A stretch of DNA of 64,000 bases, taken from positions 9,374,413 to 9,438,412 of the forward strand of contig NC_057923.1 of the NCBI RefSeq assembly GCF_018873765.1. Direction: 5' to 3'. The stretch comes from Telopea speciosissima. Taxonomy: Eukaryota; Streptophyta; Magnoliopsida; Proteales; Proteaceae. The position numbers and the translations under genes were made by a program. Under the pieces are notes generated by a model. The model was not told where the DNA came from, made no database searches, and saw only the letters and a list, made by a program, of their open reading frames with translations. Each line of letters starts with the position of its first letter. The stretch's first letter is position 1. Shown here piece after piece: positions 1,136-62,533 of the stretch.

Positions 1136-4051
1136 ATGCTACAGTAAGGGCAGCAACCTGAACAAACTCGGATGGTCTGGGGAAAAAAAAAAAACTGCAG
1201 CATCAAATCTTCTCCATGTACAACAGACGATCAATCATAGGTTCCCTCAAACCTTATGTAAGAAGGTAAGAGGGATCAGCAAAGGGCAGGACCCTCGGTG
1301 GGAAGAAGCTCTACCACCGAGGGATGGGTCTCTCTCTTGATTCGATGGGAGAGAGAGAGAGAGAGAGAGAGAGAAGCCAAGAGGAAGAAGAGGCAAGATG
1401 AGGGGGATGTTGATGCTAGGAGTTGTGCAGTTTTGGTATTAGGGTTTGGATCCCAAAGTGGATCCTTGCTCTGTCTCCATGTTGTGATTTGGGGAATGAT
1501 GACATACTACTTGTACTGCCCTAGGACATTTCTACGGTTCTACCCTTATACCCATATTACAACAGTATCATCTGGTATGTTTCGCCTTTTTTTAAGGGTA
1601 AGAGAGTATAGTTCTATGGGTTTTTGCATGACTAGACCTTCTCAAATGCCACACAAGTTCCAAATATGTTAGGCTCCACTGTCTACTCAAGTGAAAGTCA
1701 ATAATTTCAAGATAGAACTTAGGAGGTCTCTTTTCTTTTGAACCACTTAGGAACGCTTTATTCTTTTATGTTGCAGAGGTCTTTTGTGGTTACCTTCATT
1801 TTGGTAATTCTGGTTTCTATAGTTCAGTTATGGTAGTTTTTGTTATTTATTTTTTCAATCCTGATTCCTGACTAGGAAATTGGCTGGCACATGGGGGTGG
1901 TGGTGAGAGGAAATTGGCGGGGGTCAATGTCCCCAGTTAACCCAGGCACTAGAGAGAGACAATCCCAATAGGTTGGAGCAAGTTACAAGGAGAGAGAAAC
2001 CGTGTCCAAAAGGCCTGAACCTGAAATAGAGAAACACAGTAAGTTGGGGCAAGCTACAATGTGATGGGAGAAACCATGTCCCTTAACCCCACCCCCCCTC
2101 ATTCAAGCACGCACATACTCACTCTCTCTAACTTGCTAGAACAAGTTTTCTTCTCCCTTCTATTCAATCATTAAAAAAACAGGTTGGGTTCTCTGAAACT
2201 CTGAATTGGAAAAGGGGAGCTGGGTCATTCGTGTTAGTCTGATTATTTGTGCATTGAGGTTCTCTGGCAGAGTGATCACTCATGCAACCAGGTGGCTGGC
2301 TGTTCAACCAGTCCAACTGGCTTGTCCTGTCCAGCGTAAATACTTCCTTTAATTTTGCAAGGGTTCTTTCAATTTTTTTTCTGGGTCATTCGTGTTGGTC
2401 TGATTATTTGTGCATTGAGGTTCTCTAGCAGAGTGACCACTCATGGAACCAGGTGGCTGGCTGTTCAACCAGTCCAACTGGCTTGTCCTGTCCTGTCCAG
2501 TCCAGCGTAAATACTTCATTTAATTTTTGCAAGGGTTCTTTCATTTTTTTCCCCAAATTTTAATTATCAGGCTGCATGAGTATTCTTACTGTTACCGTCT
2601 TTCCATTCATTGTCTCTTTTTTTTTTTTCTGGGGAGGGGGGGGGGGATGGGAGGGTGTTTTTAATCCATTCTGATGGTATTGTGTTTATCCTTCTGATAT
2701 TGATGCTGTTACTGTTGCTGGAGGGTTCTCTGACTTGAAGTGGCTTTTTTTATTTTTATTTTGTAGAAAACGGAAAAGGAAGGATCTCAAGATGAGAAAC
2801 AGTGAGGAACAGTTCCATGATGTAGCATCAAGTCTTGGGTTATGTTCTGTTCTTAAATCTCATGATGCATTTGGATATCTACTCTTATTTGTTGCAATTC
2901 TGAGTCGATGAGATAAGCTTAAAAGGCATTACTAGCAAAATGTTTTAAAGATTCTGATTCATAATATTTCAGATTTAAATAGATCTGTGAAAATTGAGAT
3001 GTGGCTTTTGAAGACTGGTCTGTCTTCATTTTGGTGCTGACTTGATTCATAATATTTCTGATTTGATGAGAGAATTGATGCTCTTGAAGTTTTCCTGTGG
3101 TGGGTTACAGGAGTATTTGCTTATTTCCCAGGCCCTATTTGATTCTTTGCAAGACTTTTCCTGCAAATTATATTGTACATAAAAATTTCTTAGGGAATGT
3201 GTCCTACATGCCCATGGAAGAAATCCCCTCCTACGCACCTACTTCAAATATTGCCACATGGACAGATGAATATCCAGACCATTGGATAGATAGTTTAAAA
3301 AATGAATTAGTCGCTTGTCAAAGCTTAATTCAATCAAACACCCTCTCGTGTATGGCCATGCATCCTTATGTATGTCTATATATGGTAATGGTACTCCAAC
3401 CATTTTCCATAACCTAGGATTTTTCATAGGTCTATTTTAAGTTGATGGGCATGTTTGGATTCTTTTTTAATTATTTATGCATGCCGATGCTACCATTTTT
3501 TGGATTTTACATCAAAACAAAAACAAACAGCAGAAAGTCTTACAAGAAAGAAGCTTCTTTTTTTTTTTGTCCCATTTTCTTAGGGGAAAGGTTTAACCCG
3601 TCAGTGGATCATGGGATTTAGGGTAAAATAAAAATAAAAAACATAAAAGGAAGGAATTATCGACCATTCATCAAATGGGTGGGATTGGGGGAAGGGGCAC
3701 AAAGAGATTCATTTGCCGGGACCGAAAACTCTCCTTTTCTTTTTTCACATGGAAACAAAGGGAGACCAAAGGAAATTTACATAGTCAGATCAGTGTATAA
3801 ACTGAAAGAATAGGAGAAATAAAAAAAAATGAGTCCATAAAATTCAAGTATGAGAAAAATAATCGTGTCATGTCACAAATTACAATAATGTAAAACCCTA
3901 CAATTCTCTATGGCTTCTCTGAATTACTAGTGTCAGGCAATATAAAAAACAGGATCAAAAGGGTAAAAAAAATGAAAATAAAGAATGGGTGTGGTTGTAC
4001 AAGTGATTCATTGTTCATAGGCCAACAATGATGCGGCACCATGAGTGTTTG
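1136..4051. other. Intergenic DNA with no supported gene
   Basis: The stretch holds a (GA)n microsatellite near 1347-1375, a tandem duplication at 2220-2552 (listed separately), poly-T and poly-G tracts near 2617-2648, and the 3' flank of the GT92 gene. A short splice-acceptor-like TTTTGTAG at about 2760 is followed by an open dozen codons, but no partner exon was found. Open frames at 1298-1672 and 3097-3417 have low-complexity or unremarkable translations and are not called as genes. Confidence 0.5.
2220..2552. repeat. 162-bp tandem duplication
   Basis: Two head-to-tail copies begin with CTGGGTCATTCGTGTT at 2220 and 2382. They share the body GATTATTTGTGCATTGAGG and end in GCAAGGGTTCTTTCA. 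They differ at only a few positions plus a short CCTGT expansion in the second copy, so the duplication is recent. Confidence 0.9.
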
Positions 4052-5992
4052 TCACTGAAGAGAGCTCCCCCACCAGGGTAATACCCCATTTGCAGGATCA
4101 GCCAGGTTGGCCATTACGAAGTCCCTGAGCCCTGTGTCCCATACCTCACAGAACTGAAGTGGCCAATTGGGTGGCTCAATGGCCTCAGTCCCAAGCCCAG
4201 GGGCCCTGTCTTTCGATCCCTCATTCTGGTTCTCTTGCCAGTATGCGACGTAGGTGGCAACCCTTCGAAAGAACTTGGCCCTGAAAGCTTCCCACACCTG
4301 GTACTTGTAGTGATTTATGATGGCTGTACTCTGTGGCAGGTTGAGGTACGTGTACCCTGTCTTTAGCCGGAAATGGTGAATCACATTGAGTAGTGTATCG
4401 TCGAGAGCATTGGGGCGTACGATGGATTTGTGCCTTTCAGGGCTCTGGAGCCGGCAGGTGTAGCCCACTGTCACTCCCTGTGAAGGAGGCGTTCTTAGCC
4501 CTGACGGTCCAAAGCTGTGGCAGGATGTCCTGATCTCACCGATGGTTGTTGAGGAGGAGAAATTTGCGACGAGGGTTTTAAGAGAATCTCGACCTGGGTA
4601 TCCCAAGCTATCGGTCGGAATCCCTCTGTTTGCAGAGGGAACAGGGAAGTAGAAGAACTCATCAACATCCATGAATCCCACCCAATTGCATTCCGCCTTT
4701 GCCCTGACGGTGCAGTGTGAGAAACCAGCTTCCTGGGTCTTGAGCCAAGGCCAGACGTGCCTGCTAACATTGTAATTCTCTTGATCGAGTTCGTCAATCA
4801 CTTGCTTGATATTGTCGTCACTGTTGTTGTCATAGATGAACCAGCGCTCAACCCCAAGCCAGGCATGGTAGGTGATCCATTCCCGCAGGGAGGAGGCTTG
4901 GTTCCATACCATGGTGCATACACACATCTCATATTTCTTCTTCACCGCGGCAGTGGTGGTGGTGAAATGGAAGATCTTAGCGACGGAAGGTAGGGGAATA
5001 TAAAGGGGAGGAGTAGTCCTCACTCTGCCTGATGTTCCCAATGAAGCTACACCAATGGTGACTCGGATTCCATTGGCTCTAGAGGGATTGTTTCGAATGG
5101 TAATAGGGAGAGAGCACCGGACAACTTCCTGTGCTGCAGTAAGGGCCTGTGTGGTGAAAACGAAGTGGGGATTTCTCTGCCAATTTCCCCATCCGAAGTG
5201 GCAGACGAATTGCGTCGGATCAGAGGCTCTATCAGGGCGAAGATTCAATCCTTTAACGAACACCACGGCCGTGTCCCCATCCAGAGCTGCACCGTAGACC
5301 AGCGACGTCTCCCATGAATGAACTGGATGATCAATTCCAATTCCAACCGACGCATCATCTTGTAATTCTTCTCCTCTGCTGCGCTGAGTCTCTCTAATTC
5401 CAGTCCTCTCCAGGAGAACCCAAGCAGAGTGATTAGCTGGAGGTGTGGGACACCGGGCAATTGACCTGTAACCATCGAATTCGTCTACAGACAGAAGGGA
5501 AAGTGAGATGCTGTGGCGGTTCTTGGGATCTAACTCATTGGATTCAATAGAATTGTTGGTGTTACTGAAGGAGGGCAGAGGATGGTAGACACAATTCAAT
5601 GCTGCGTTCCAATGAAGCAGAGATAGACCCTTCGTCGTTATCGTTCTCCTCTTGGAAACCACCAGCAAAACATGGTCAGAGAACAAGACCCGATCCTCAA
5701 CAATGAATGGCAATGGTCCCCCGTCATTATGATCGGCAGAAGAATGTAAGATGGAATTGCTCACGGCCAATGCTGAAGACGACAGCAGAGGTAAGCGGGA
5801 GACGATCAGAACGGGACGGAAGGGAGACGAGCCAATGGTGGAGAAGCTGTTAAGGAGGAGGACGAAGCAGCAGAAGCAGAGGAGGAGGAGAAGGAGAGAG
5901 ACGGAAATGGAATAGTGGCAGGAGAGTAGAGAGGACGAAGGAGTTCGTCTTGGGATGTGCTTTCGCTTGCGGCACTGCAGCTCAGAATCCAT
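4052..5992 (-). CDS. Glycosyltransferase family 92 (DUF23) protein
   Basis: This is a single-exon gene for a type II Golgi-like membrane protein. From the chosen start (MDSELQ...) it is 646 residues long. An upstream in-frame ATG at 6016 would add 8 residues, but the second ATG has A at -3 and G at +4 and is preferred. After a basic N-terminus (RKRKHIPRR) comes one hydrophobic anchor at about residues 29-49 (a leucine/cysteine run), then a stem, then the GT92/DUF23 catalytic region at about 353-600. Visible motifs are MCVCTMVWNQ, REWITYHAWLGVERWFIYDN and WVGFMDVDEFF; the DVD of the last (about 442-444) is the likely DXD metal/nucleotide-sugar site. Plant GT92 enzymes include the GALS beta-1,4-galactan synthases; the exact acceptor here is unknown. 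The frame is intact to the C-terminus. The next gene to the right on the same strand is TORTIFOLIA1-like, as at Arabidopsis At1g27200/At1g27210 (from memory). Confidence 0.93.
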   Translation of the reverse strand: MDSELQCRKRKHIPRRTPSSSLLSCHYSISVSLLLLLLCFCCFVLLLNSFSTIGSSPFRPVLIVSRLPLLSSSALAVSNSILHSSADHNDGGPLPFIVEDRVLFSDHVLLVVSKRRTITTKGLSLLHWNAALNCVYHPLPSFSNTNNSIESNELDPKNRHSISLSLLSVDEFDGYRSIARCPTPPANHSAWVLLERTGIRETQRSRGEELQDDASVGIGIDHPVHSWETSLVYGAALDGDTAVVFVKGLNLRPDRASDPTQFVCHFGWGNWQRNPHFVFTTQALTAAQEVVRCSLPITIRNNPSRANGIRVTIGVASLGTSGRVRTTPPLYIPLPSVAKIFHFTTTTAAVKKKYEMCVCTMVWNQASSLREWITYHAWLGVERWFIYDNNSDDNIKQVIDELDQENYNVSRHVWPWLKTQEAGFSHCTVRAKAECNWVGFMDVDEFFYFPVPSANRGIPTDSLGYPGRDSLKTLVANFSSSTTIGEIRTSCHSFGPSGLRTPPSQGVTVGYTCRLQSPERHKSIVRPNALDDTLLNVIHHFRLKTGYTYLNLPQSTAIINHYKYQVWEAFRAKFFRRVATYVAYWQENQNEGSKDRAPGLGTEAIEPPNWPLQFCEVWDTGLRDFVMANLADPANGVLPWWGSSLQ

Positions 5993-6016
5993 TTGCTTGC
6001 AATGGCATATGTGCAT

Positions 6017-7143
6017 TACTGGCTAATCAGATCCAATGCTGCTGCTTCGCTATGTCGATGTGTACGGGTAGATCTCAGGGGCTGAGCTGATGGGAATGGG
6101 GGACCTGTAAGAGGAAGAAGAGAGACGGAGGAACCTCGAGAGAGAGAGAGAGAGAGAGTGCATAGGCATTAATCTTAAGGAGACGCAACGCGTAGTTATG
6201 AAAGAAGAGAAGAGACGCCAGCCGTACTTTCCACCGCCAACTGAGAAAGTCCACCACCCCACTCTTCCTCCTCCTCCTCCGAGTCCTCTTTCTCTGCTGG
6301 TGCGCTGTATTATTTCTCTTTCTTGCTTTCAACAGAACAATATCCTATTCTACTACTCTATTGAATGTTCAAACATGGCATATGCAATAATATGCCCATA
6401 CCTTTCCCTTATTGTCCAAAAAAACAAAAAAGAAAAACCCATACCTTTCTCTTTTGCAATAAAGAAGTATTGTGTTTATTTGACCATATTTTTGGAGACA
6501 TAACTCGTAATTTACTGGGAAAAACATAAGATTACTTACAAATCCCTATCCAAACAAAAACATAGGGTGTTTTGGTTATTTCATAAGGGGGTCCACCTAT
6601 GAAATAACTCAAACACCTCTTGTTTTGCTGGGTTGGATCTTTCAACTCCCGCCATGGCTGTAGGAGAGTCGAATTATCTTTGTATACCTACGAATTGAAC
6701 ACTCCTGCACCAACTTAGGGAAAAAAAAAATTTTCGGAGGGATGCATCATCAAGAGTCGTGAGGGGTTCACCTCTCTGAGACTGGTTGTGGTTCTTGGCA
6801 CTAGCTTGGTGCTAAGAAAGTTCCAACTTCCAATGCTATAAAGTCTAATTAATTAAAAGTTGTTCGATCAGCTTTTGGTGCCTTCTCCCCCATCTTCTTT
6901 CTTTCTTTCTTTCATTCTTTCTTTCTTTCTTTCTTTTTATTCGATTGAACCCATGTCGAGTCCTCAACACCTCATCTTCTTTCTTTAATCTTTATTAATT
7001 AAAATGAAATGCCAGAGAAGCTTCAACCTCTGATGATTGGCAGCATGTGAAGTGAAGGATGTGTTTGATTTTGTTTTGTACGATTTACTCACATATTCAA
7101 AAAAAAAAATTTATACGTTTGGTTGGCTATACAAATTCCACTG
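6017..7143. other. GT92 upstream region
   Basis: This is the 5' flank of the minus-strand GT92 gene. A (CT)n/(GA)n tract at 6138-6158 lies in the likely 5' leader on the coding strand. Further out are AT-rich DNA and a (TTTC)n tract near 6896-6935. No gene is seen. Confidence 0.5.
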
Positions 7144-20195: not shown

Positions 20196-23100
20196 TCAAC
20201 TGGTGACAGAAGAAGCAACATCAAGGCCACTTCTACTACGGCCTTGCCTTCCCTCAAGATCATAGATTGTGTTTTTCAGTGCTCTGTTTGAGAAAATCTC
20301 TGAACTTGCCGTTGAGTCACTATGAATCTCCGCCAGTGGATTCACAATAACACCACCACCACCCCGTTGGAGCCGGAATCTCCAGTTATCCATCCTCAAA
20401 GGTTCCGAACTGCCATCTTTATCAGCAACATTCCGAATAGCAGCTAGTGATCCCCCAGAAGAAGATAAACTTGAGCTTGGGTACCGGCCTTCCGTTCTCC
20501 TCCAGAATTTTGAGCTCAGGAATTCTGCACCAGGTAACTTACAGCATGTGTTCCCAGCTGAGTCAGTGCCTGATACCTTTGCTGTCGACATGGCCAAATC
20601 GTAAGAAATCTCATCCAGGGCCAGCTCTAGACCATGCACACGTGTCTCTAGAGAACGCATCCCATTCTGTGAGCTCCCAATGAACTTCTGAATTCAAGAA
20701 TTGAACAGGAGAGTAATCATCAGAGAAATTCTTACAGTTAAAGGACACTAAACTGTAACCTTATTCCTAAAACATTATCATAAATGGATTGACCATCCTC
20801 AGATAGGGCCAGATCTGATTGTCCTATGTGAGACAAAAATATCTGCCCACAGGGTTCGTTTCTAAAAAATTTTTTAGGCAGTGGACATCCTAGGACTCTG
20901 CTTTCTGAAAGCTGTGAACTAGCCTATTCATGGTAAAATATAACATGATGCATGATGCAGATCCTTGATAAAAGTAGAAAACATGGGCCAAAGGCCATCA
21001 GAAATATTGCAAAAATAAGACAACTTGCTCTCATCCGAGAGTAGTGCAACAGAAGGGACTTGAAACAAAGAAATACAGGAAAAATAGAGCGAAAGAAGAT
21101 GATGAACTTCTTCATGTTGCAATAGGATTGCATTTACTGAAGTGCTGGTCCATGACTTGCATGCTGTAGAAAGTTTTATTGGAGAATAAATTCTGAGATT
21201 GAATGGGACTGAAGAAAGGGCATTCTATGCATATACTTAGCATGTTCATGGATATTTTGTTGACAGGGGACCGAAGCTACCATAAGCCAACTAACCCGTC
21301 CCACAAACCAAGGACTTGGAATGTCTGGAATATTGAAATGCTATTGTTAAATAAAACAGCCCAGAAATAATAAGAACAGTAACTGAGTAATTCTAATCAA
21401 CATATTTGGGGTTGCAGCAAACAGAATTGTGGACACATAAAGTAGATCATAAAATGCAATTCATGAGAAAGAGGAACCCCAATAGGGGATAAACAAATCA
21501 AGCTCCACCAGCATACCTGCAGAAGATCTAACAGACTCGATTGCTGGTTCTCAATCTGAACCAGTTGCTTGCGGATCAAGGACAGGTCCTCGTTGTCTTT
21601 CTGGTTCCCATACATCTCAGTGGCATTGCTAACTACAACAGTAGAATCAGAGCTCTCGTCCTGAAGTGGAACCACACGGTTCCCGGACCTGAATCCACCA
21701 AACTTGTGTGTCTTGTCATTGTAGTTCTTATTAAAGAGAACACGCTTTGTTTGAGGTTTTAAACTTGCATTACACTCATCTACCCCTGATTCTAGACCTC
21801 CCCCATCTGTCTTCTTAATATCATCCTCGCATACAACTGTAAGAGAGGAAGCATGAGGTACAGCAACCTCAACTTTCCAATCAGGCAGCTTCTTGCAGTC
21901 GAGTTTACGAAACAGGGCGGGACTTGATTTACTGTCATTACTCTTCAAAGGGGACCTTTTTCTAGCAATAGTCACAGATGAACTATCCGGCGGAGGCGAC
22001 CTGCTTGCCGGGATTGCTTTCTTCCTCGTTTGAGGAGTTTCAAAACCCAGAGTACCAGAGCTTCTGGGACCTGGTGGGAAGCGCCCGTCGCTTGCATTTT
22101 CTGTCAATTACGTAAACAAGAAAATTAACATCGGAGAGGTGTCAACAATGGATGTCAGAGTTCAACAACTACTGGTAGAAATAAAAAGAAGATAAAACGT
22201 TAAAAATGCAAGGGCGCAAACCAATAGAACCGGAAGAAGAAAAGAAATCCTTCATGCGGATGCCCAAATCTCCAAACATTGATGTAATAAGTACCAAAAC
22301 GGCCCCAATTCATATGTTACGTGAAGAAGACTCAAATAATAATGGTGGAAAGAAGGAATATCAGTGATCCTCTTGAAGACGGATGCTAGCATTAGCAGTT
22401 TTCAATGAAAAGTTAAAAGCAGACAAGCATGAAGTAGAAATCTCGTACCTCTTGAAGAAGATATCGATTGCGATGGCTGTGTAACCTCGTCAGAAAGTCC
22501 AGGAACATCCTTCCAGGCTTCCAACATCTGATTCATGGTTTCCCGAACAGCCTTCACCTATAGCATATTAGATCCAATAAGGTCAAATAGGATAAAATTC
22601 GAAGATAAACCAGGAACCATAGTCATATTTACAACGACAATGGAGAAACTGGAAATGTTGGCCGACCTTATCGAACCTCCGAGCGTCAAAAGATGCCAGG
22701 GACGAGGTCTTAAACTCGGACAATTGATCCCTCTCCACAATAGCAAGCTTAAGTAAAGCCTCAGCGGCAGCCTTCCTCGCGGCCCAATCTTCACTACTGA
22801 GGAACTCCACCATAGTAGGAACCAAATTGGTCAATACATTACGACTAGAGGCACCGCCGACCCCAGCAATGCTGCCAATGAGCGCTAACAGCGCCGGTTT
22901 GGCCTTAAAGCACTCAGCCTTGAGTAACTTCAGCAGCCTCGGCAAGAGTTTCTGCAATTGCGAAGGCTCCGGATCAGGCGAAGCCTCGATAGCGGAGGCG
23001 AGACAAAGCGCGGAACCGATCTGAGCGTTGTAGTCTTGTTCAAGCAGGAGAGCCTCAGTTAAAGGCTTCAAAAACGCAGAAAAGGGGGGCTTAGTGATCT

Positions 23101-23485
23101 GAGAAGCCATGGTCGTGACAGCGTCGATACAAGCCTGCCGGACGGCGGAATCAGAGTCCCTGAGGCGGCGAACGATGTTAGCTAGCATTTTGGAGACGAA
23201 AGGAGAGAGAGCATCGCCATGAGTCTGAGAGATGAAACCAAGGAGTCGGACACATTGTTTCCGGACAGGACTCTTCTCAGAGGAATCTGTATCGTAGATA
23301 CAATTAAGGAACGGAGTGAAGGAGTCGTGAGAGAGGTTGCGGGCGATCGATTCGAGCTCGGAGGTAGCAATAGCGTGAGTATCACGGTCAGAGAGCTTGT
23401 TGAGGTTGATGATGACTCGTTTCTTGAGATCGCGAGTCGAAGCGTTCTGTTGAGGAGTCGGTGAGGATCGCTTTGTGACTGCCAT
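20196..23485 (-). CDS. TORTIFOLIA1/SPIRAL2-like microtubule-associated protein
   Basis: Four exons on the minus strand join at 23485-22667, 22557-22449, 22100-21517 and 20687-20196, giving 667 residues. The plant TOR1/SPR2 family binds cortical microtubules through N-terminal HEAT repeats and affects directional growth. Residues about 12-273 are HEAT-like, opening with TRDLKKRVIINLNKLSDRDT and including RRLRDSDSAVRQACIDAV and SEDWAARKAAAEALLKLA. Exon 2 has the conserved ETMNQMLEAWKDVPG. A basic, Ser/Pro-rich linker follows, then a coiled segment (LIRKQLVQIENQQSSLLDLL, about 482-504) and the conserved C-terminal block MRSLETRVHGLELALDEISYDLA. The start MAVTKRSS is chosen for its strong context (ACAATGG); in-frame ATGs at 23536 and 23635 would extend the N-terminus, but the outer one would lie only about 30 bases from the TATA box. 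Subfamily member uncertain; it resembles Arabidopsis At1g27210-type proteins. Confidence 0.9.
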
Positions 23486-23666
23486 TGTCGCCGGTGATTG
23501 GGAGGAGTAGTAGTACTGCGGAGTAGATCCCGGCATTGACCGCTTCAGATTAGAAGCGGTGGCGCCACCGGTCCAGTGTTCGGTAAAAGCTGCTCCGCCG
23601 CCTTCTCTCTCTCTCTTTCTATCTAATCTCTGCAATTAGTCCTTCAAGATCCACGCCGTGGTTTCG

Positions 23667-51858: not shown

Positions 51859-54800
51859 ATGGGTGACAACGACAAAACGGATTTGCAGAGCAAGAGGTCC
51901 AATAAGAAGAAGAGCTCTTCTTTCTCATCCATTACCAGTATTTTCATGCATGCAGATCGTATAGATGTGTTGTTAATGTTTCTGGGATTTCTTGGTGCTG
52001 TTGGTGATGGATTCATGACTCCAATCATGTTGTTCATTACTAGCAGAATCATGAACAATTTTGGTACTTCAACCACCACTGATTCTAATGTCTTCGTTCA
52101 CAATATCAATCAGGTAACCTGAACTGAACAGAAAAGAAAATTTCCTTTTTCTTGTCACATCTGCTCTGTTCTGATTAAGGTTTTTTGTTTTTGAATCACA
52201 GAATGCGGTTAACCTACTCTACTTGTCATGTGGGTCTTTCTTAGTTTCCTTCTTGGGTAAGTATTGTCTTTTTGAGAATCTATTTGGTATAAAAATTTGA
52301 TCTTGGTTTTAATGGAGTTTGATTTTGCAGAGGGTTATTGCTGGACAAGAACAGGGGAAAGACAAGCAGCAAGGATGAGAGCTACATATCTAAAAGCTGT
52401 GCTAAGGCAAGAAGTGGGTTACTTTGATCTGCAAGTCTCAAGCACAGCAGAAGTGATTACTAGCGTTTCCAACGATAGTCTCGTTATCCAAGACGTTATT
52501 AGTGAAAAGGTTCCTTTTTTTGTTTAAAACCCCTCTTTTTAATGATTCTCTATTCTGAAAACCCAGAAAACTAACAGAAAATTCAAATCATAAGCAGGTG
52601 TCAAACTTCTTGATGAACTCGTCAATGTTCTTAGGGAGTTACGTTGTAGCATTTCTGCTAATGTGGAGGTTGGCCATTGTAGGATTCCCATTTGTTGTTC
52701 TCCTACTCATCCCTGGAATGATATATGGAAGAACATTAATGGGTTTAGCAAGGAAAACCAGAGAAGAGTACAATAAAGCTGGTACTATAGCTGAGCAAGC
52801 GATTTCATCTATCAGAACTGTTTACTCGTTCGTTGGAGAAAGTAAAACCATGGAGGAATTCTCTGCAGCGCTTCAAGGATCTATTAAGTTAGGCTTGAAA
52901 CAGGGCTTGGCCAAAGGTTTAGCAATTGGTAGTAATGGTGTTGTCTTTGGCATTTGGGCTTTCATGTCTTGGTATGGAAGCAGATTAGTCATGTATCATG
53001 GTGGGAAAGGAGGAACTGTTTTCGCCGTCGGAGCTTCCCTCGCTATTGGTGGCCTGTAAGTCTCTCATTCTCTCTCAGTTTCTTAACTTCAATTCTCTGT
53101 TTCAATTGATGACTGAATTGAACTTGATTGATTTCCTGACAGAGCACTAGGCTCTGGTTTGTCGAACCTGAAGTACTTCTCTGAAGCTTCTTCTGCTGGA
53201 GAACGTATAATGGAGGTCATCAAGAGAGTACCAAAAATTGATTCAGGAAACATGGAAGGTGAAATTCTGGAGAGTGTTTCAGGAGATGTTGAATTCAAGA
53301 ACGTCGAATTTGCTTACCCGTCGAGACCTGACAACGTAGTCCTTCCAAACTTCAACCTTAAAGTTCCTGCCGGAAAAACTGTAGCCTTAGTCGGAGGAAG
53401 TGGGTCAGGAAAATCAACTGTTATTGCTTTAGTGGAAAGATTTTATGATCCAATTAATGGAGAAATTCTACTTGATGGAGTGGCCATTGATAAGCTTCAG
53501 CTCAAATGGCTTCGTTCTCAAATGGGTTTAGTCAGCCAAGAACCAGCTCTCTTTGCAACCTCCATTAAAGAGAATATATTCTTTGGCAAAGAAGATGCCA
53601 CCATGGAAGAAGTTGTTGCAGCAGCTAAAGCTGCTAATGCTCATAATTTCATATCTCAATTGCCTCAAGGATACGAAACCCAAGTAGGTGAGAGAGGAGT
53701 TCAGATGTCGGGAGGACAGAAACAGAGGATAGCAATTGCAAGAGCAATAATCAAAGCACCTCGAATCCTTCTGTTAGACGAAGCAACAAGCGCATTGGAC
53801 TCGGAATCGGAACGAATCGTTCAAGAAGCACTGGATAAGGCGGCGGTGGGGCGTACCACGATCGTGATTGCTCACCGACTCTCCACGATTCGCAATGCGG
53901 ACGTAATCGCTGTGGTGAACAATGGACTAGTGATGGAGACCGGATCACATGACGAGTTGATCCAGAACGAGAACGGGTTATACTCTTCACTCGTCCGACT
54001 CCAACAGACAGAGAAGAAGACAGAAGACACCACCATTGTCACCACCACAGCTCTTGTCGACAACAATAGTAGTAGTCGGAGAAGCTCTATCATGAGTAGG
54101 TCTAGCTCTGCAAGGTCAGAGAGTAAAGAGGAGAGTGATGCTGTGTCGGCGGAGGAGAGAAAGTTACCTCTGCCATCGTTTCGGAGGTTGTTGATGTTGA
54201 ATCTTCCGGAGTGGAAACAAGCGATCTTAGGATGTGTGGGTGCGATGTTGTTTGGGGCGGTGCAGCCAGTGTACGCGTTTGTGATGGGGAGTATGATATC
54301 GGTGTACTTCTTGAGTGATCATAGTGAGATAAAATCGCAGACGAGGACTTACTCGTTGTTCTTCGCTTCACTGGCGGTGTTCTCGTTGGCGATTAATATA
54401 ATCCAACACTATAACTTTGGAGCCATGGGTGAGTATTTGACGAAGAGGGTGAGGGAGAGAATGTTGTCAAAGATACTCACTTTCGAGGTTGGGTGGTTCG
54501 ATCAAGATGAGAACTCTACTGGTGCTGTTTGTTCTAGGCTCGCCAAAGATGCCAATGTGGTACGTCTATATTTCTCTCTTTTACTCTTTCTACAATTCAC
54601 ACACTGAAACCATCCAACCAAACCATTCAATGCACCCCCACAGCACAACATGTGGCCGAGATGTTTAGATGGCGAGGATGGATGTGCACCACAGAGTTGG
54701 AAATCTTTTTCTCCATAGTATATGCATCATGCTCAAATGTGTGCATCCATTCTCGCAATCTGAACAACACCTATTTATTATAATCAGATCTTTTTTTTGT

Positions 54801-57465
54801 TACTATAATGTTCTTCTATCATAATTTTTTGCTATATATTCATTTAGGGCTGATGTTTTCTTTGCCACAATGCAGTCTGTGCCCACACACATGGGCCTAT
54901 CATTCAGGGGCAGGGTGGTCATTGCGCCCATCCCATGTGTCTGAACGCAACCTGCACCCCCACACAGAAAACATTCTCCCATTCATTTAAATGATTAGCT
55001 CCTAAATGACTCCACGTGTAGATGATTAGTCAAATAATAATTAATTATATACATAAAAGTCTTTTTTTGGTAAAGAATTATATACATAAAAGTCAGCTCA
55101 ACTAAACTTCCACCCTCTTTGATTCAACTAAAAGGGAAATGATCTGACTTTGTATTTAATCTTATCTTTTAATTTAAGTTTTTTTTTTCATGTAAATAAA
55201 AAAAAAATAAAAAAATAAAAAACTGAATGAGAGATGGTTTGGTGATTCACTTAGCAGTGGGTCCTATCTAATCGCATAAACATAAGACATGTGGATTTTT
55301 TCTTTTTTCTTTTAGGAAGAATGTTCTCTGTGCTGCAGCATAAGCTACGTCCAGCACATGAGCAACTTGTGCAGAGGGCAGGGTGGTCATTCCACCCACC
55401 CCCATGTGCCTGGGTGCAATCTGCACTGCGGCACAGAGAACAGTACCCCTTTCTTTTATTACTTTATTACATCTTTCTTCTACGAGGGCAAGGCGTAGGG
55501 GAAAGAAATAACATTTCATGTGAAGAAGAGAGGGATAGACACACGAGATGATGCTAGTATACTACGCTAGCAGTTTACAGAACCTTTTTCCTTTTTTAAA
55601 TTTAGTTGAAGATAACAAGAGGAAGGGAGAAAGAACGCTGTGCACTCCGCCTTTCCCAAAGAGGAAACGTAGCACTGCAAAACACTCTCACTAATGCTAA
55701 TTAAGTTTAAAAACACTTCTGTCATCTGGCTAATGATTCGTCATGCATGATGGATTTGCTAGATAATGCTGTTGCTTTCATCCATGACTTAGTCTTCATT
55801 AACATAATGGAATAGAAAATTACTTCCAATTAATGCGCTTCCTATATCATCATTTTAAATATAGTTAATCGCTTTCAAGTGATTAATCAAATATTATATT
55901 ATTATTGATGTTGTTTAGTTTAATGCTTCTGATGTGTTTGCCTAAAAGATCTCTCACGTTTAAGAAATCACTGAGTCAAGAGACTCGGACCCATTACTTC
56001 TTCAGTTACGACTCGTTAATATAGTAAATCTTCTTTTTCTTTTTTTAATAATATAAGAAGGAACAACTGGTTTCAGGTGAGATCACTAGTGGGAGATCGA
56101 ATGGCTCTTCTGGTACAGACCTTCTCAGCCGTAATCATAGCTTGCACAATGGGCCTAGTTATTGCATGGAGGCTTGCGATCGTGATGATAGCGATCCAAC
56201 CCTTGATCATAATTTGCTTCTACACCCGCCGAGTTCTACTTAAGAGCATGTCCAACAAAGCCATTAAAGCACAAGACGAGAGCAGCAAGCTCGCCGCCGA
56301 AGCTGTCTCCAATCTCCGCACCGTCACCGCTTTCTCCTCTCAGGCACGGATCCTTAGCATGCTTGAACGAGCTCAAGAAATCCCACGAAGGGAGAGCATT
56401 CGCCAATCCTGGTTCGCCGGCATTGGCTTGGCGTCTTCCCAATCTCTCATGACCTGCACATGGGCCCTCGATTTCTGGTATGGTGGAAGGCTTGTTTCCC
56501 ATGGCTATATCACTTCTAAGGCATTATTCCAGACCTTCATGATCCTAGTCAGCACCGGCCGTGTCATCGCCGATGCCGGAGCTATGACCACCGATTTGGC
56601 CAAAGGTGCTGATGCGGTCGGCTCTGTTTTCTCGGTACTCGACCGGGTCACCCGAATTGAGCCGGATGATGCTGAAGGTCACAAGCCCCAGAAGTCATTA
56701 ACTGGTCGTATAGATATTCAGAACGTTGACTTTGCCTACCCTGCGAGACCTGATGTCATCATCTTCAGGGGATTTTCTCTGAATATCGAACCTGCAAAGT
56801 CAACGGCTCTGGTGGGTCAGAGCGGTTCAGGGAAATCGACAATCATCGGTCTGATCGAGAGATTTTACGACCCATTAAAAGGGTCGGTGAGGATCGACGG
56901 AAGAGATATAAAGTCGTACCATCTGAGGTCTTTGAGGAAGCACATCGCGTTGGTGAGCCAAGAGCCGACACTGTTTGCTGGGACGATTAGGGAGAATATA
57001 GTGTACGGCGGAGCTGGAGCTTCGGAGAAGGTGGATGAGGCGGAGATCATAGAAGCAGCAAAGGCGGCGAATGCTCACGATTTTATAGCATCACTGAAGG
57101 ACGGGTATGAGACATCGTGTGGAGACAGAGGGGTGCAGTTGTCGGGAGGGCAGAAGCAAAGGATAGCGATAGCAAGGGCGATACTGAAGAACCCGGCGGT
57201 GTTGTTGTTGGACGAGGCAACGAGTGCGCTGGACAGCCAATCGGAGAAAGTGGTGCAAGAGGCATTGGAGAGGCTGATGGTTGGGAGGACGAGCGTGGTG
57301 GTGGCGCATCGCCTCAGCACTATTCAGAACTGCAATCTTATTGCAGTGTTGGAGAAGGGGAAGGTGGTGGAGAAAGGGACTCATTCGGCGCTTTTGGCCA
57401 AGGGACCTGCCGGGGCTTACCATTCTCTTGTAAGCCTCCAACGGACGCCACCAACGCTAACTTGA
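51859..57465 (+). CDS. ABC transporter B family member (ABCB15/22-like, MDR type)
   Basis: Six exons join at 51859-52113, 52202-52256, 52331-52509, 52598-53055, 53143-54559 and 56077-57465. They total 3753 nt and encode 1250 residues, the full length usual for plant ABCBs (about 1240-1290). The order is TMD1-NBD1-linker-TMD2-NBD2, so it is a full transporter, probably in the plasma membrane, exporting hydrophobic compounds or auxin-like substrates. NBD1 has Walker [10 protein letters not shown] (about 400-408), signature SGGQ (505-508), Walker B ILLLDEAT (524-531) and the H-loop His near 560. A Ser-rich linker ([18 protein letters not shown]) follows. NBD2 has GQSGSGKST (1035-1043), LSGGQ (1143-1147) and VLLLDEAT (1163-1170). 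All catalytic motifs are intact. MGDNDKTD... with [13 protein letters not shown] resembles the ABCB15/16/22 group; substrate unknown. Intron 5 (about 1.5 kb) holds two MITE copies. The gene converges on TFB5. Confidence 0.96.
54846..54977. mobile_element. MITE family A, in ABCB intron 5
   Basis: It starts GGGCTGATGTTTTCTTTGCC and ends CACACAGAAAACATTCTCCC, forming inverted ends. The core GGGGCAGGGTGGTCATTGCG matches family A. It lies within the last intron of the transporter gene. Confidence 0.8.
55313..55449. mobile_element. MITE family A, second copy in ABCB intron 5
   Basis: AGGAAGAATGTTCTCTGTGC pairs with GCACAGAGAACAGTACCCC. The core GGGCAGGGTGGTCATTCCAC and CCCCATGTGCCTGGGTGCAA match the copy at 25650. 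A family L fragment (AACATTTCATGTGAAGAAG...) follows at about 55478-55590. Confidence 0.87.
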
Positions 57466-59521: not shown

Positions 59522-59526
59522 CACAC

Positions 59527-60025
59527 TGATGCAGGACAATCTTGGACCGGACCGACCCAACTGGTGTACTACATTGGACTGACCCAAACCCAGTTGAACT
59601 GGGTCCAGTTTGAGTGTTTGAATCTAGTAGGATTTTAGGAAGTTTATTTTATTTGGGAAATTATTATGTAATCTTTTATTTTAAGGTAATTATTAGACAT
59701 ATAGGGAAATTTCCAATTTGAGTTTTATTGGGTTTCTATTTTAGTTATAGCCTAGTTTTAGTAAGTAATTAGGAGTCTTTATTTTTGGATGCCTTTTATT
59801 TCTCTTTATGTATGATGTAATTCCCCATCATTAGAAGTTATGCAAGAATGAATTAAAAGAAGAAAATTGGGTTTGTGCGTGTGCACACTCCCCCCCCCCC
59901 CCTTCTTGGACGCTCCCTTCTGCTGTGTCTCCTTCTTCCCCTTTCTTCTGTGTGATTTCTCCCCTCCCCCTCCGGTTTCTTCTTCTACCTCCTTCAATCC
60001 TCTTCTCGATTTCTGTCCCGCATTA
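59527..60025 (+). repeat. 5' LTR
   Basis: Direct repeat of 62034-62528. It includes a C-run near 59890 and a TC-rich 3' part. Confidence 0.92.
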
Positions 60026-60027
60026 TC

Positions 60028-60040
60028 TGGTATCAGAGCC
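60028..60040 (+). other. Primer-binding site (tRNA-iMet type)
   Basis: TGGTATCAGAGCC begins two bases after the 5' LTR, the classical plant LTR-element priming site. Confidence 0.9.
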
Positions 60041-61101
60041 GAAGGATCCCATCTTTCTTCCTTCCCTTGTGATCTTTCTTTCTCCCCATTCTGTTCTTCT
60101 TCTCCTTCTTATCTTTTCTCTGTGGTTGTGATTGAACAACACCAGCAGCAACCCCTTTCCTTTTCCCTATTCTTTATCCCCACCATTGTTCTGCCGATAT
60201 CAGCCAAAAAATATATATATATACTGTTCTGTCCCTTCCCATGACAACCCTCTCTCTCCCATCTCCCATTGATACCCTACCCCTTTCCCTGTCCTATCGA
60301 CTTCACTGAAACCACATCCCATTCAGCCAAACAAAAAAAAAAAAAAAAAACCCTGCATCACTCTTCATCTCCCATCCCTCTCCTTCGACCCCACTGAAAC
60401 CCCAAACCCGCCTTCCCTTTCTTCCTCGCTGTAACAGCAAACCAAAAAAAAAAATAAAAAATTCTCCCTCTCTTCGATCCCCAGCGGCACCGCCCCCTGT
60501 TTCTTGGTTCCTCCAGAATCGAACAAAAAAAATTAAAAAAAAAGAAGTGCAGAAAGAAGAAGATAGCGAGAGACAGCGAACCAGAAACAGAAAAAAAAAT
60601 ATCGAGAAGAAAAGAAGAGAACGAGAGACATCGAGCAACAAAGAGATAGAACTCTTATCTGGGTCGCACTCGAACTCCATCTCCAGCTGCTGGTTCCTTG
60701 TTGAACTTGAACTTGATCTCCGCCGGTCGGCTTCAACACGTCGTCCTCGCAGGGTTTCCTTCGCCAGCTTTCTTGCTGGTTCTGTATCCAAGTGGAAGTC
60801 GACCTTCCCAGAGTGGTTCGAATCGCATTCCTTGCTCCAAGGCTTCCGCCACATTCTCCACAGAAATCGCGTGAGGAGGCATTCTGAGAACCCAAAACCC
60901 TGCTGGTTTTCCAAATCGACACGGTATCCACCCACCCTGCTCACAATTCTTTCTTATTTTGTTTTCTGCATATCCCCAAAATACCCTTGACTTCCTTTCT
61001 TATCTCATCTCTCCATAATTACAAATCTACCATCCATTTAGCAATTTCAGTTTAATTACAATTCTGCCACTGTCCTTATAACCTTCATTGTATTTACAAT
61101 T

Positions 61102-62145
61102 GTGCCATCAATGATCTCCAAACCACCACCCAATCGAATTCTTTTAGTTACAATCCACCAGTTGCTCTATCCTATAACTGTGAAAGCGTGGCAGCAAATA
61201 TTTTCTCTTCATGGATTTGTTGAAAAGATCAAGATCTTTCATCAGTCTGCTATTGTTTGTCAAGCTTTTGTCCAGTATCAGTCACTCCTGAGTGCCGTTT
61301 CAGCAAGGAATATTCTTCAAGGTCGTAATATTTATGATGATTGTTGTACACTGAATATTCAATTTTCATGCCTAAGTGAGTTACAATTGAACTACAATAC
61401 TAAATGGTCATGGGATTTCACGAACAAATCAACACAGGATGAAGAGCTCTCGAGACTTGAACAGTTGGATCGTTTGATTGGAGAGGTCTTGAAAAACCTT
61501 CCAGTTACCCATGAAATGCAAACGGCTGCCCCACCTGCTAATAGGACAGTCCCGGAAGAGCCTGACGTTGAAGCAACGTTGATTGAGAATGAAGAAGTTT
61601 CAGTAATTTCTGTCTTCAAGGAAGACCCAGCCCGCGAAGTTCCTACTACCGAGACTCATGTTGAAGACGTCAAAAGCAATATGTTCGCATTAGTGGACTA
61701 TGAGGTCGAGACCAAGGAACTTGGCCCTTTAACAACTGTGATGATAGTGACCAGCCAAGAGGATCCTACAGAGCTTGACATTGAAATTATGGAGGTCAAG
61801 AACACAATGGAAGGCGACACATATGGCCCTATGGATACGTCCGACAACGTTAAGGTTGGGCACATAGAATTCGTCATCCCCTTGAAGTACTTTGAGGAGT
61901 GTCGTCCTTGTCTTTATGATTACATCTGTACGTTCACCCCATCCAAGTTGTTGATCGTGGATGTTGATCGAGTGGTGTTGATCTTTTCCTTTTTCAAAAC
62001 TCATGGTCGAGTTTTTCTCAACATCGGGAGAGTTGATGCAGGACAATCTTGGACCAGACCGACCCAACTGGTGTACTACATCGGACCGACCCAAACCCAG
62101 TTGAACCAGGTCCAGTTTGAGTGTTTGAATCTAGTAGGATTTTAG
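61102..62145 (+). CDS. RRM/PTB-like fragment captured in the LTR element
   Basis: The open frame runs from inside the element into its 3' LTR. Its first 110 codons read like an RRM of plant polypyrimidine-tract-binding proteins: RILLVTIHQLLYPITVKAWQ (RNP2 and helix 1), FSLHGFVEKIKIF, AFVQYQSLLSAVSARNILQG (RNP1 and helix 2), then GRNIYDDCCTLNIQFSCLSE and LQLNYNTKWSWDFTN. Known PTB3-type proteins have the near-identical LLVTIHHMLYPVTVEVLHQVFS, GFVEKIVTFQKSAGFQALIQ and GRNIYDGCCQLDIQFSNL. The remaining about 240 codons are acidic (VEATLIENEEVSVISVFKED) and unrecognised; the last 37 are LTR sequence. The RRM part lacks introns, which suggests capture from a processed transcript. Whether it is translated is unknown. 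Confidence 0.72.
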   Translation: MPSMISKPPPNRILLVTIHQLLYPITVKAWQQIFSLHGFVEKIKIFHQSAIVCQAFVQYQSLLSAVSARNILQGRNIYDDCCTLNIQFSCLSELQLNYNTKWSWDFTNKSTQDEELSRLEQLDRLIGEVLKNLPVTHEMQTAAPPANRTVPEEPDVEATLIENEEVSVISVFKEDPAREVPTTETHVEDVKSNMFALVDYEVETKELGPLTTVMIVTSQEDPTELDIEIMEVKNTMEGDTYGPMDTSDNVKVGHIEFVIPLKYFEECRPCLYDYICTFTPSKLLIVDVDRVVLIFSFFKTHGRVFLNIGRVDAGQSWTRPTQLVYYIGPTQTQLNQVQFECLNLVGF

Positions 62146-62528
62146 GAAGTTTATTTTATTTGGGAAATTATTATGTAATCTTTTATTTTAAGGTAGTTAT
62201 TAAACATATAGGGAAATTTCCAATTTGAGTTTATTGGGTTTCTATTTTAGTTAGCCTAGTTTTAGTAAGAAATTAGGAGTCTTTATTTTTGGGTGCCTTT
62301 TATTTCTCTTTATATATGATGTAATTCCCCATCATTAGAAGATATGCAAGAATGAATTACAAGAAAATTGAGTTTGTGCGTGTGCACACACCCCCCCCCC
62401 CCCCCTTCTTGGATGCTCCCTTCTGCTGCATCTCCTTCTTCCCCTTTCTTCTGTGTGATTTCTCCCCTCCCCCTCTAGTTTCTTCTTCTACCTCCTTCAA
62501 TCCTCTTCTCGATTTTTGTCCCGCATTA
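62034..62528 (+). repeat. 3' LTR
   Basis: Direct repeat of 59527-60025, followed by the target duplication CACAC. Confidence 0.92.
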
Positions 62529-62533
62529 CACAC

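Follow-up and report, generated by a model that had tools for sequence, protein, structure and literature searches.

A family of small LTR retrotransposons in Telopea speciosissima with a host PTB3-derived RRM as the N-terminal module of its open reading frame

To our knowledge it is an open question how the RNA of a non-autonomous LTR element is chosen for packaging by foreign machinery. This question is raised by a compact element in a 64,000-nt stretch of the Telopea speciosissima genome (NC_057923.1, positions 9,374,413 to 9,438,412; hereafter the window), in which a first-pass annotation of the sequence had recognized no protein content other than an RRM like that of plant polypyrimidine-tract-binding protein (PTB), in place of gag-pol. 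The element at 59527–62528 is a 3,002-bp copy of an LTR retrotransposon, and the boundaries given by that annotation proved exact (Table 1). Paired LTRs, a primer binding site (PBS) and a polypurine tract (PPT) are present as had been described. The PBS we take to be of the tRNA-iMet type, and a purine run similar to the PPT precedes TTGATG in most of the relatives compared. Direct repeats link the two LTRs over 208 nt (95% identity), 152 nt (93%) and 114 nt (96%); overall the LTRs are ~94–95% alike, with a K2P distance of 0.046 over 495 aligned sites. They form a single pair, and an origin from different insertions is ruled out by this identity and distance. Using the rice rate of 1.3e-8, which may be too fast for a tree, we date the insertion to about 1.8 My. 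The CACAC that had been proposed as target duplication is indeed found on both sides, but it is weak evidence by itself because the flanks consist of CA/GA-rich simple sequence.

Table 1. Features of the LTR element and its immediate flanks; positions are those of the window
Feature	Position	Strand	Basis or remark
Left CACAC, candidate target-site duplication	59522–59526	+	CA-rich flank, weak
5' LTR, TGATGC...GCATTA, 499 bp	59527–60025	+	Direct repeats
Primer binding site TGGTATCAGAGC	60028–60039	+	Read from sequence
Leader, ~1.07 kb	60040–61110	+	Composition and ATG count
Fusion ORF, 344 codons plus stop TAG	61111–62145	+	
RRM, aa 9–107, from PTB3 RRM2, intronless	61135–61431	+	Pfam, structure match, host exon comparison
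Tail module, aa 108–307	61432–62033	+	Tails of Gag-like and protease-like elements are relatives
Polypurine tract GGGAGAG	62026–62032	+	
3' LTR, 495 bp	62034–62528	+	Direct repeats
Right CACAC, candidate target-site duplication	62529–62533	+	
LTR type TGATGCAG; ORF C-terminus ...GRVF..GRVDA			

We analyzed seven ORFs of the element with Pfam, using E values up to 10 for the fusion ORF and up to 0.1 for the six others. No gag, PR, RT, RH or INT, the domains expected in an autonomous Ty3/gypsy or Ty1/copia element, was found in them, in agreement with the first reading of the locus. A sub-threshold match to lentiviral Vif (E=0.065) among the six further ORFs is taken as chance. The view that the RRM is the only protein content had to be given up: it makes up the first third of a 344-codon frame, and the rest is mostly a tail that has no Pfam match of its own but does have kin. 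Downstream, the frame extends through the PPT and then for ~36 codons inside the 3' LTR. Of this anatomy, together with the family status described below, we are nearly certain.

The RRM of the fusion ORF was assigned to the Pfam family RRM_8 (PF11835; E=1.6e-14, 54.3 bits compared to a cutoff of 26.2), and the best match among solved structures was RRM2 of human PTBP1 (E=5.4e-16). For the fusion ORF Pfam returned RRM families and nothing else (E up to 10), including the segment 61102–61440 in which the RRM had first been noticed; with PTBP1 RRM2 as top structure, a gag misread as an RRM is ruled out. AlphaFold2 models of the ORF and of the RRM were unusable (pLDDT 29.5 and 39.9). We located two host PTB3-type genes, on C1 near 2.504–2.514 Mb and on C7 near 6.016–6.023 Mb, with an Arabidopsis PTB3 query. 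Both genes have five exons across RRM2. Over 302 bp the window RRM shows 84% (C1) and 81% (C7) DNA identity to the spliced exons, and the host introns of 303, 104, 105 and 112 bp are all missing, as expected from the original description of an intronless PTB-like RRM. From the absence of the four introns it follows that the source was a spliced transcript, and the element RRM is derived from spliced host PTB3 sequence. PTB has four RRMs. The window protein shares RRM2 sequence and exon content of the RRM_8 type with plant PTB3, but it carries only one RRM of the four, is fused to an element tail and is under weak constraint. In a tree of 43 RRM copies (leaving out L034b and L020) the copies cluster apart from both host genes. 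As most copies have the same changes from the host (for instance FSCLSE where the host has FSNLSE), a single capture of PTB3 RRM2 is suggested, although recombination could also have spread these common changes.

A DNA search with RRM and tail gave at least 46 matches (40 of 300 candidates scored), and a protein search with the RRM gave 91 matches from 100 candidates, all of them scored. After dropping the two host genes and merging pieces less than 1 kb apart, at least 73 element loci with an RRM remained. These counts are lower bounds, and with them a one-off capture is ruled out. Fifty-seven of the loci consist of a single piece. Of these, 33 have a match free of stops, and 15 of the 33 are also situated in an open frame of 270 aa or more. 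Thirty loci were fetched, the window copy included, and in 24 of them the retrieved sequence contains an LTR pair that flanks the RRM, with a median K2P of 0.032 (range 0.013–0.069). The propagating family that the first-pass annotation had considered is thus real. RRM elements were also observed a few kb apart at C9:30190000–30201500, C6:60131500–60134000 and C6:35944000–35947000, perhaps as tandem or LTR-sharing arrays.

Searching with the tail alone, we obtained at least 151 matches (150 of 1440 candidates scored), many of them at ~30–54% identity and off the RRM list, and read 18 such tail-only loci (L041–L058). Gag-like ORFs were found upstream of the tail in L041 and L043. Pfam detected Retrotrans_gag above the cutoff in L045 (E=1.1e-6) and below it in L041 (E=0.0035), while L043 is Gag-like by eye. 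L046, L047 and L051–L053 have a middle and tail of the Gag-like type, with Gag itself absent from the fetched frames. In L042, L044 and L054–L058 a module that is protease-like by eye lies ahead of the tail; that of L042 has no Pfam match. In L045 the gag, CCHC-knuckle and protease-like parts are spread over separate frames; L048 has CCHC and protease-like parts, L049 adjoins LINE-like sequence and L050 is tail only. The protease-like module (RTRLGLPNGKGVIFLVDNE... and kin) forms a large family of its own; of its 672 candidates the best 150 were scored, and most of the matches listed are without stop. A further group of RRM elements (class II; 14 loci fetched, L059–L072) carries a longer PTB3 piece, as judged by eye, and a different middle, and ends in the same last ~38 aa as the window-type tail. 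For the class II tail we listed the best 150 matches of 563 candidates: 104 of them (39–59% identity) are off the RRM lists and do not coincide with protease-like matches, and 5 do coincide with protease-like matches. No RRM was noticed in the printed frames of the nine loci that we read among these 104 (L073–L081). Overall, small LTR elements with related C-terminal tails and differing N-terminal modules are very numerous.

Among the RRM elements themselves the RRM comes in two variants, beta and alpha, the latter including a gamma subgroup, and there are two tails. All four combinations are present, with 11 alpha-I (gamma-I 6), 12 beta-I, 9 alpha-II and 6 beta-II copies when grouped by eye, and several LTR sequences stand behind one TTGATG junction. 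From the four combinations and the several LTR types we infer that the cassette was shuffled by recombination, for which recombination between co-packaged RNAs would be the simplest source. Since related tails sit behind Gag-like or protease-like modules elsewhere, the RRM stands in the Gag slot. A genome search by LTR spacing found no autonomous partner. It gave L082, which has the window LTR type, a C-terminus 63% identical over 41 aa, a protease-like module and a nested insertion, and L083, which has no ORF or LTR match. The nested insertion of L082 (– strand, ~1520–4870 in forward coordinates) has frames that resemble BED-type hAT transposase by eye. Among the best 150 of the 1440 and of the 563 tail candidates we found no intact gag-pol frame joined to a tail and no frame longer than 465 aa.

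The frame of the RRM is kept on the branches that produced further copies, and the amino-acid constraint on it is weak. In the RRM core all 14 stop gains fall on terminal branches, which carry 308 substitutions; internal branches, with 171 substitutions, have none where 7.8 were expected (Fisher p=0.003). For the class I ORF the corresponding numbers are 19 and 1 (p=0.06), and for the tail 10 and 1 (p=0.70), where the stop test is without power. The class II loci were chosen by RRM similarity and partly for open frames, which works against this test. In 28 class I copies (leaving out L034 and L020) the indels common to at least three copies comprise 4 in-frame events and 1 frameshift, compared to 2 in-frame and 24 frameshift events among the unique indels (p=0.002); two of the shared indels may be one realigned event, and the sole shared frameshift lies near the C-terminus in 4 copies. 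Codon 29 of the RRM (window 61195–61197 in register) is changed from glutamine to a stop in L019, L032, L035, L036 and L060. These copies are not mutual closest relatives on the tree; recurrent C-to-T change or gene conversion may be involved.

A comparison of dN/dS across copies, which the first-pass annotation had proposed, gave a weak signal with medians from 0.53 to 1.0. Within groups the GY94 omega medians of the RRM were 0.68–1.0 (gamma subgroup 0.68–0.80), and between alpha and beta they were 0.53–0.58 with 2–4 of 10 sampled pairs significant. The beta RRM compared to the host, a comparison that includes the host branch, gave 0.36–0.41 with 7–8 of 10 pairs significant, and omega between the two host PTB3 genes was 0.14. 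On internal RRM branches omega was ~0.66 (LRT 3.0, optimiser not fully converged). Because the pooled NG86 ratios of 0.61–0.64 lie inside the neutral medians of 0.58–0.73, obtained from a null with transition bias, we rejected dN/dS as proof of selection. Variation at the RNP1/RNP2 sites is lower than in the rest of the core (0.135 versus 0.256, p=0.02, 44 copies). The window-type tail appears to be conserved as protein when compared to the tail-only loci: for 16 of the 18 loci the LRT for omega=1 exceeded 3.84 in 14 comparisons, with omega 0.01–0.69, two runaway fits (L042 and L057) and an alignment by protein similarity that biases omega downward. For the class II tail the LRT was clearly above 3.84 in 2 of 9 comparisons with tail-only loci, one further value being 3.8, and in 1 of 8 comparisons among RRM elements (omega 0.52–1.14). 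We consider it quite probable that the family makes a translated and selected protein.

The leader of the window element (60026–61110, 1,085 nt) contains 1 ATG, while 11.3 are expected. In the 25 of 30 RRM loci (among L009–L038) whose leader was measurable we counted 89 leader ATGs versus 243.8 expected from shuffles keeping local composition, a ratio of 0.37. Control triplets behave differently, with CAT at 555 versus 495 (1.12) and TGA, TCA and CTG at 0.82, 0.72 and 1.34 of expectation, and the window background has 723 ATGs versus 695 expected (1.04). In six near kin without the RRM (L084–L087, L089 and L090; L088, which is without PBS, was left out) the depletion is also found, with 7 ATGs versus 45 expected (0.15). 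As the depletion exists with or without the RRM, the leader behaves as the scanned 5' UTR of the module-tail ORF generally, and this ORF appears to be translated. Sense-strand AUG depletion in leaders of 0.6–1.3 kb may mark translated non-autonomous LTR elements.

The end of the 5' LTR and the early leader are also rich in pyrimidines: 59890–60130 is 80% C+T, and when the window is scanned with 240-nt stretches in 20-nt steps, the pyrimidine/purine bias peaks at 59881–60120 (81% C+T). This region contains CU motifs of the type that PTB binds. After the PBS, near kin without the RRM have a C+T content of 0.67–0.68 (n=11) versus 0.65 in RRM elements (n=29; p=0.13), whereas the value is 0.49 in nine more distant relatives, whose modules are Gag-like or protease-like. 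The density of CU motifs per 100 is 11.4 in RRM elements (n=29) versus 8.1–8.4 in near kin (n=11), with an uncorrected p of 0.02. Because near kin without the RRM share both AUG depletion and a pyrimidine-rich leader, neither is an adaptation to the RRM, and we rejected the idea that the leader became pyrimidine-rich in response to it. The tract is thus not tied to the RRM and is likely to predate it; the tract may be what made the RRM useful.

The explanation that we favor, and hold to be rather probable, is a non-autonomous family in which the host PTB3 RRM2 serves as the N-terminal ORF module and stands in for Gag. Gag normally binds the RNA. A non-autonomous LTR family, kin of Gag-carrying (TR-GAG-like) elements, would have gained PTB3 RRM2 from a spliced transcript, and the RRM would have replaced a Gag as N-terminal module of the single ORF. 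This ORF would be translated by scanning through the AUG-poor leader, and the RRM-tail protein would bind pyrimidine-rich element RNA, with its own leader as the likeliest target. The tail would link the RRM to the particle or the enzymes of an autonomous relative that gives reverse transcriptase and integrase in trans, a route that we expect because the element is without enzymes. The RRM would in this way assume the RNA-gripping role of Gag. Judged from sequence, it is possible, though somewhat doubtful, that the RRM acts on the element's own RNA. If the explanation is true, a cellular domain can be substituted for the RNA-recognition part of a retroelement. The RRM family, its Gag-like and protease-like kin and the near kin whose leaders are of the same type form a natural module-swap experiment, and the RRM-carrying family makes the binding to pyrimidine-rich RNA directly testable.

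Alternatively, the RRM could be a passenger, captured by template switching as in Bs1 and functionless, with the family amplifying purely in trans. Omega near 1 within RRM groups, a pooled dN/dS equal to the neutral null and leader features common to kin without the RRM all agree with such a passenger. However, it does not explain why no stop gain was found on internal RRM branches when 7.8 were expected, why shared indels are biased to in-frame events, or why one and the same RRM has persisted alongside two tails and several types of LTR, and we therefore regard it as unlikely. A different function is conceivable, in which the RRM covers pyrimidine tracts and hides 3' splice sites, so that the genomic RNA stays unspliced and exportable and is not packaged by it. 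PTB proteins repress splicing at pyrimidine tracts, and such a tract at 59881–60120 is the most biased of the window; but there is one RRM here versus four in PTB, and kin with the same leader type manage without any, which leaves this proposal improbable. We give hardly any credence to an action of the RRM sequence or protein on the host PTB3 genes, by small RNAs or as a dominant-negative, that would damp splicing or silencing: the window copy is 81–84% identical to the host exons, but at such divergence cross-targeting by siRNA would be patchy.

Both LTR elements that have captured host genes and elements with Gag alone are already known; maize Bs1 is an example of the former. As in LTR-captured host genes, host exons are joined without introns in the window element; the Bs1-like transduplication proposed for it at first is right as to the host capture, but not as a one-piece event, since the RRM forms the N-terminal part of a fusion ORF and lies in the Gag slot. 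TR-GAG elements are described, in the part of the source available, as non-autonomous LTR elements of plants that have GAG alone or together with protease (PMC6022998). The window family resembles them in being non-autonomous, LTR-bounded and with one retained ORF, and some tail-sharing relatives appear to have Gag-tail or gag-protease-tail ORFs that would fit this definition; it differs in having a host PTB RRM where Gag would be, so it is not GAG-only. The same portion of the source defines TRIM (<2 kb) and LARD (≥2 kb) as elements without any domain (PMC6022998). The window element is likewise small, without pol and presumably mobilized in trans, but with 3,002 bp and an RRM-carrying ORF whose frame is kept it is no LARD in this sense.

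In a survey of rice and sorghum, PF11835 (then DUF3355, now RRM_8) is listed in the legend to the Pfam figure, and the accessible text counts it among the most frequent and over-represented domains of LTR-captured proteins in rice or sorghum (PMC3726574). This is a hint that PTB RRMs were captured repeatedly, in grasses too. This text counts captured genes singly and describes no fusion of an RRM to an element tail. In a wider scenario, which we consider decidedly unlikely, a lineage gave up its own RNA-binding coat domain, a captured splicing-factor RRM came to grip a pre-existing pyrimidine-rich leader, the module passed between several LTR families by recombination, and the solution arose or was kept on more than one occasion among flowering plants, as the rice or sorghum captures of PF11835 might indicate. 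LTR elements of bdelloid rotifers also have modular ORFs common to several element types, for which template switching has been proposed (PMC5408684). There, ORF3 is added to gag and pol and shows no significant departure from neutrality, whereas the window family lacks pol, its module takes up the position of Gag, and maintenance of the frame can be detected. In the open-access literature searched we did not find a host RRM in Gag position, in frame and across several LTR types; a PTB/RRM domain in a plant LTR element was named in no title or abstract opening found, and the only case was within the text of PMC3726574.

The surroundings of the element in the window contain ordinary host genes, namely a glycosyltransferase family 92 protein at 4055–6022 (–) and a TORTIFOLIA1 N-terminal domain at 22586–23635 (–). 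An ABC transporter at 52559–57462 (+), with ABC_membrane and ABC_tran domains in 53132–54601 and 56020–57459, ends ~2 kb before the element.
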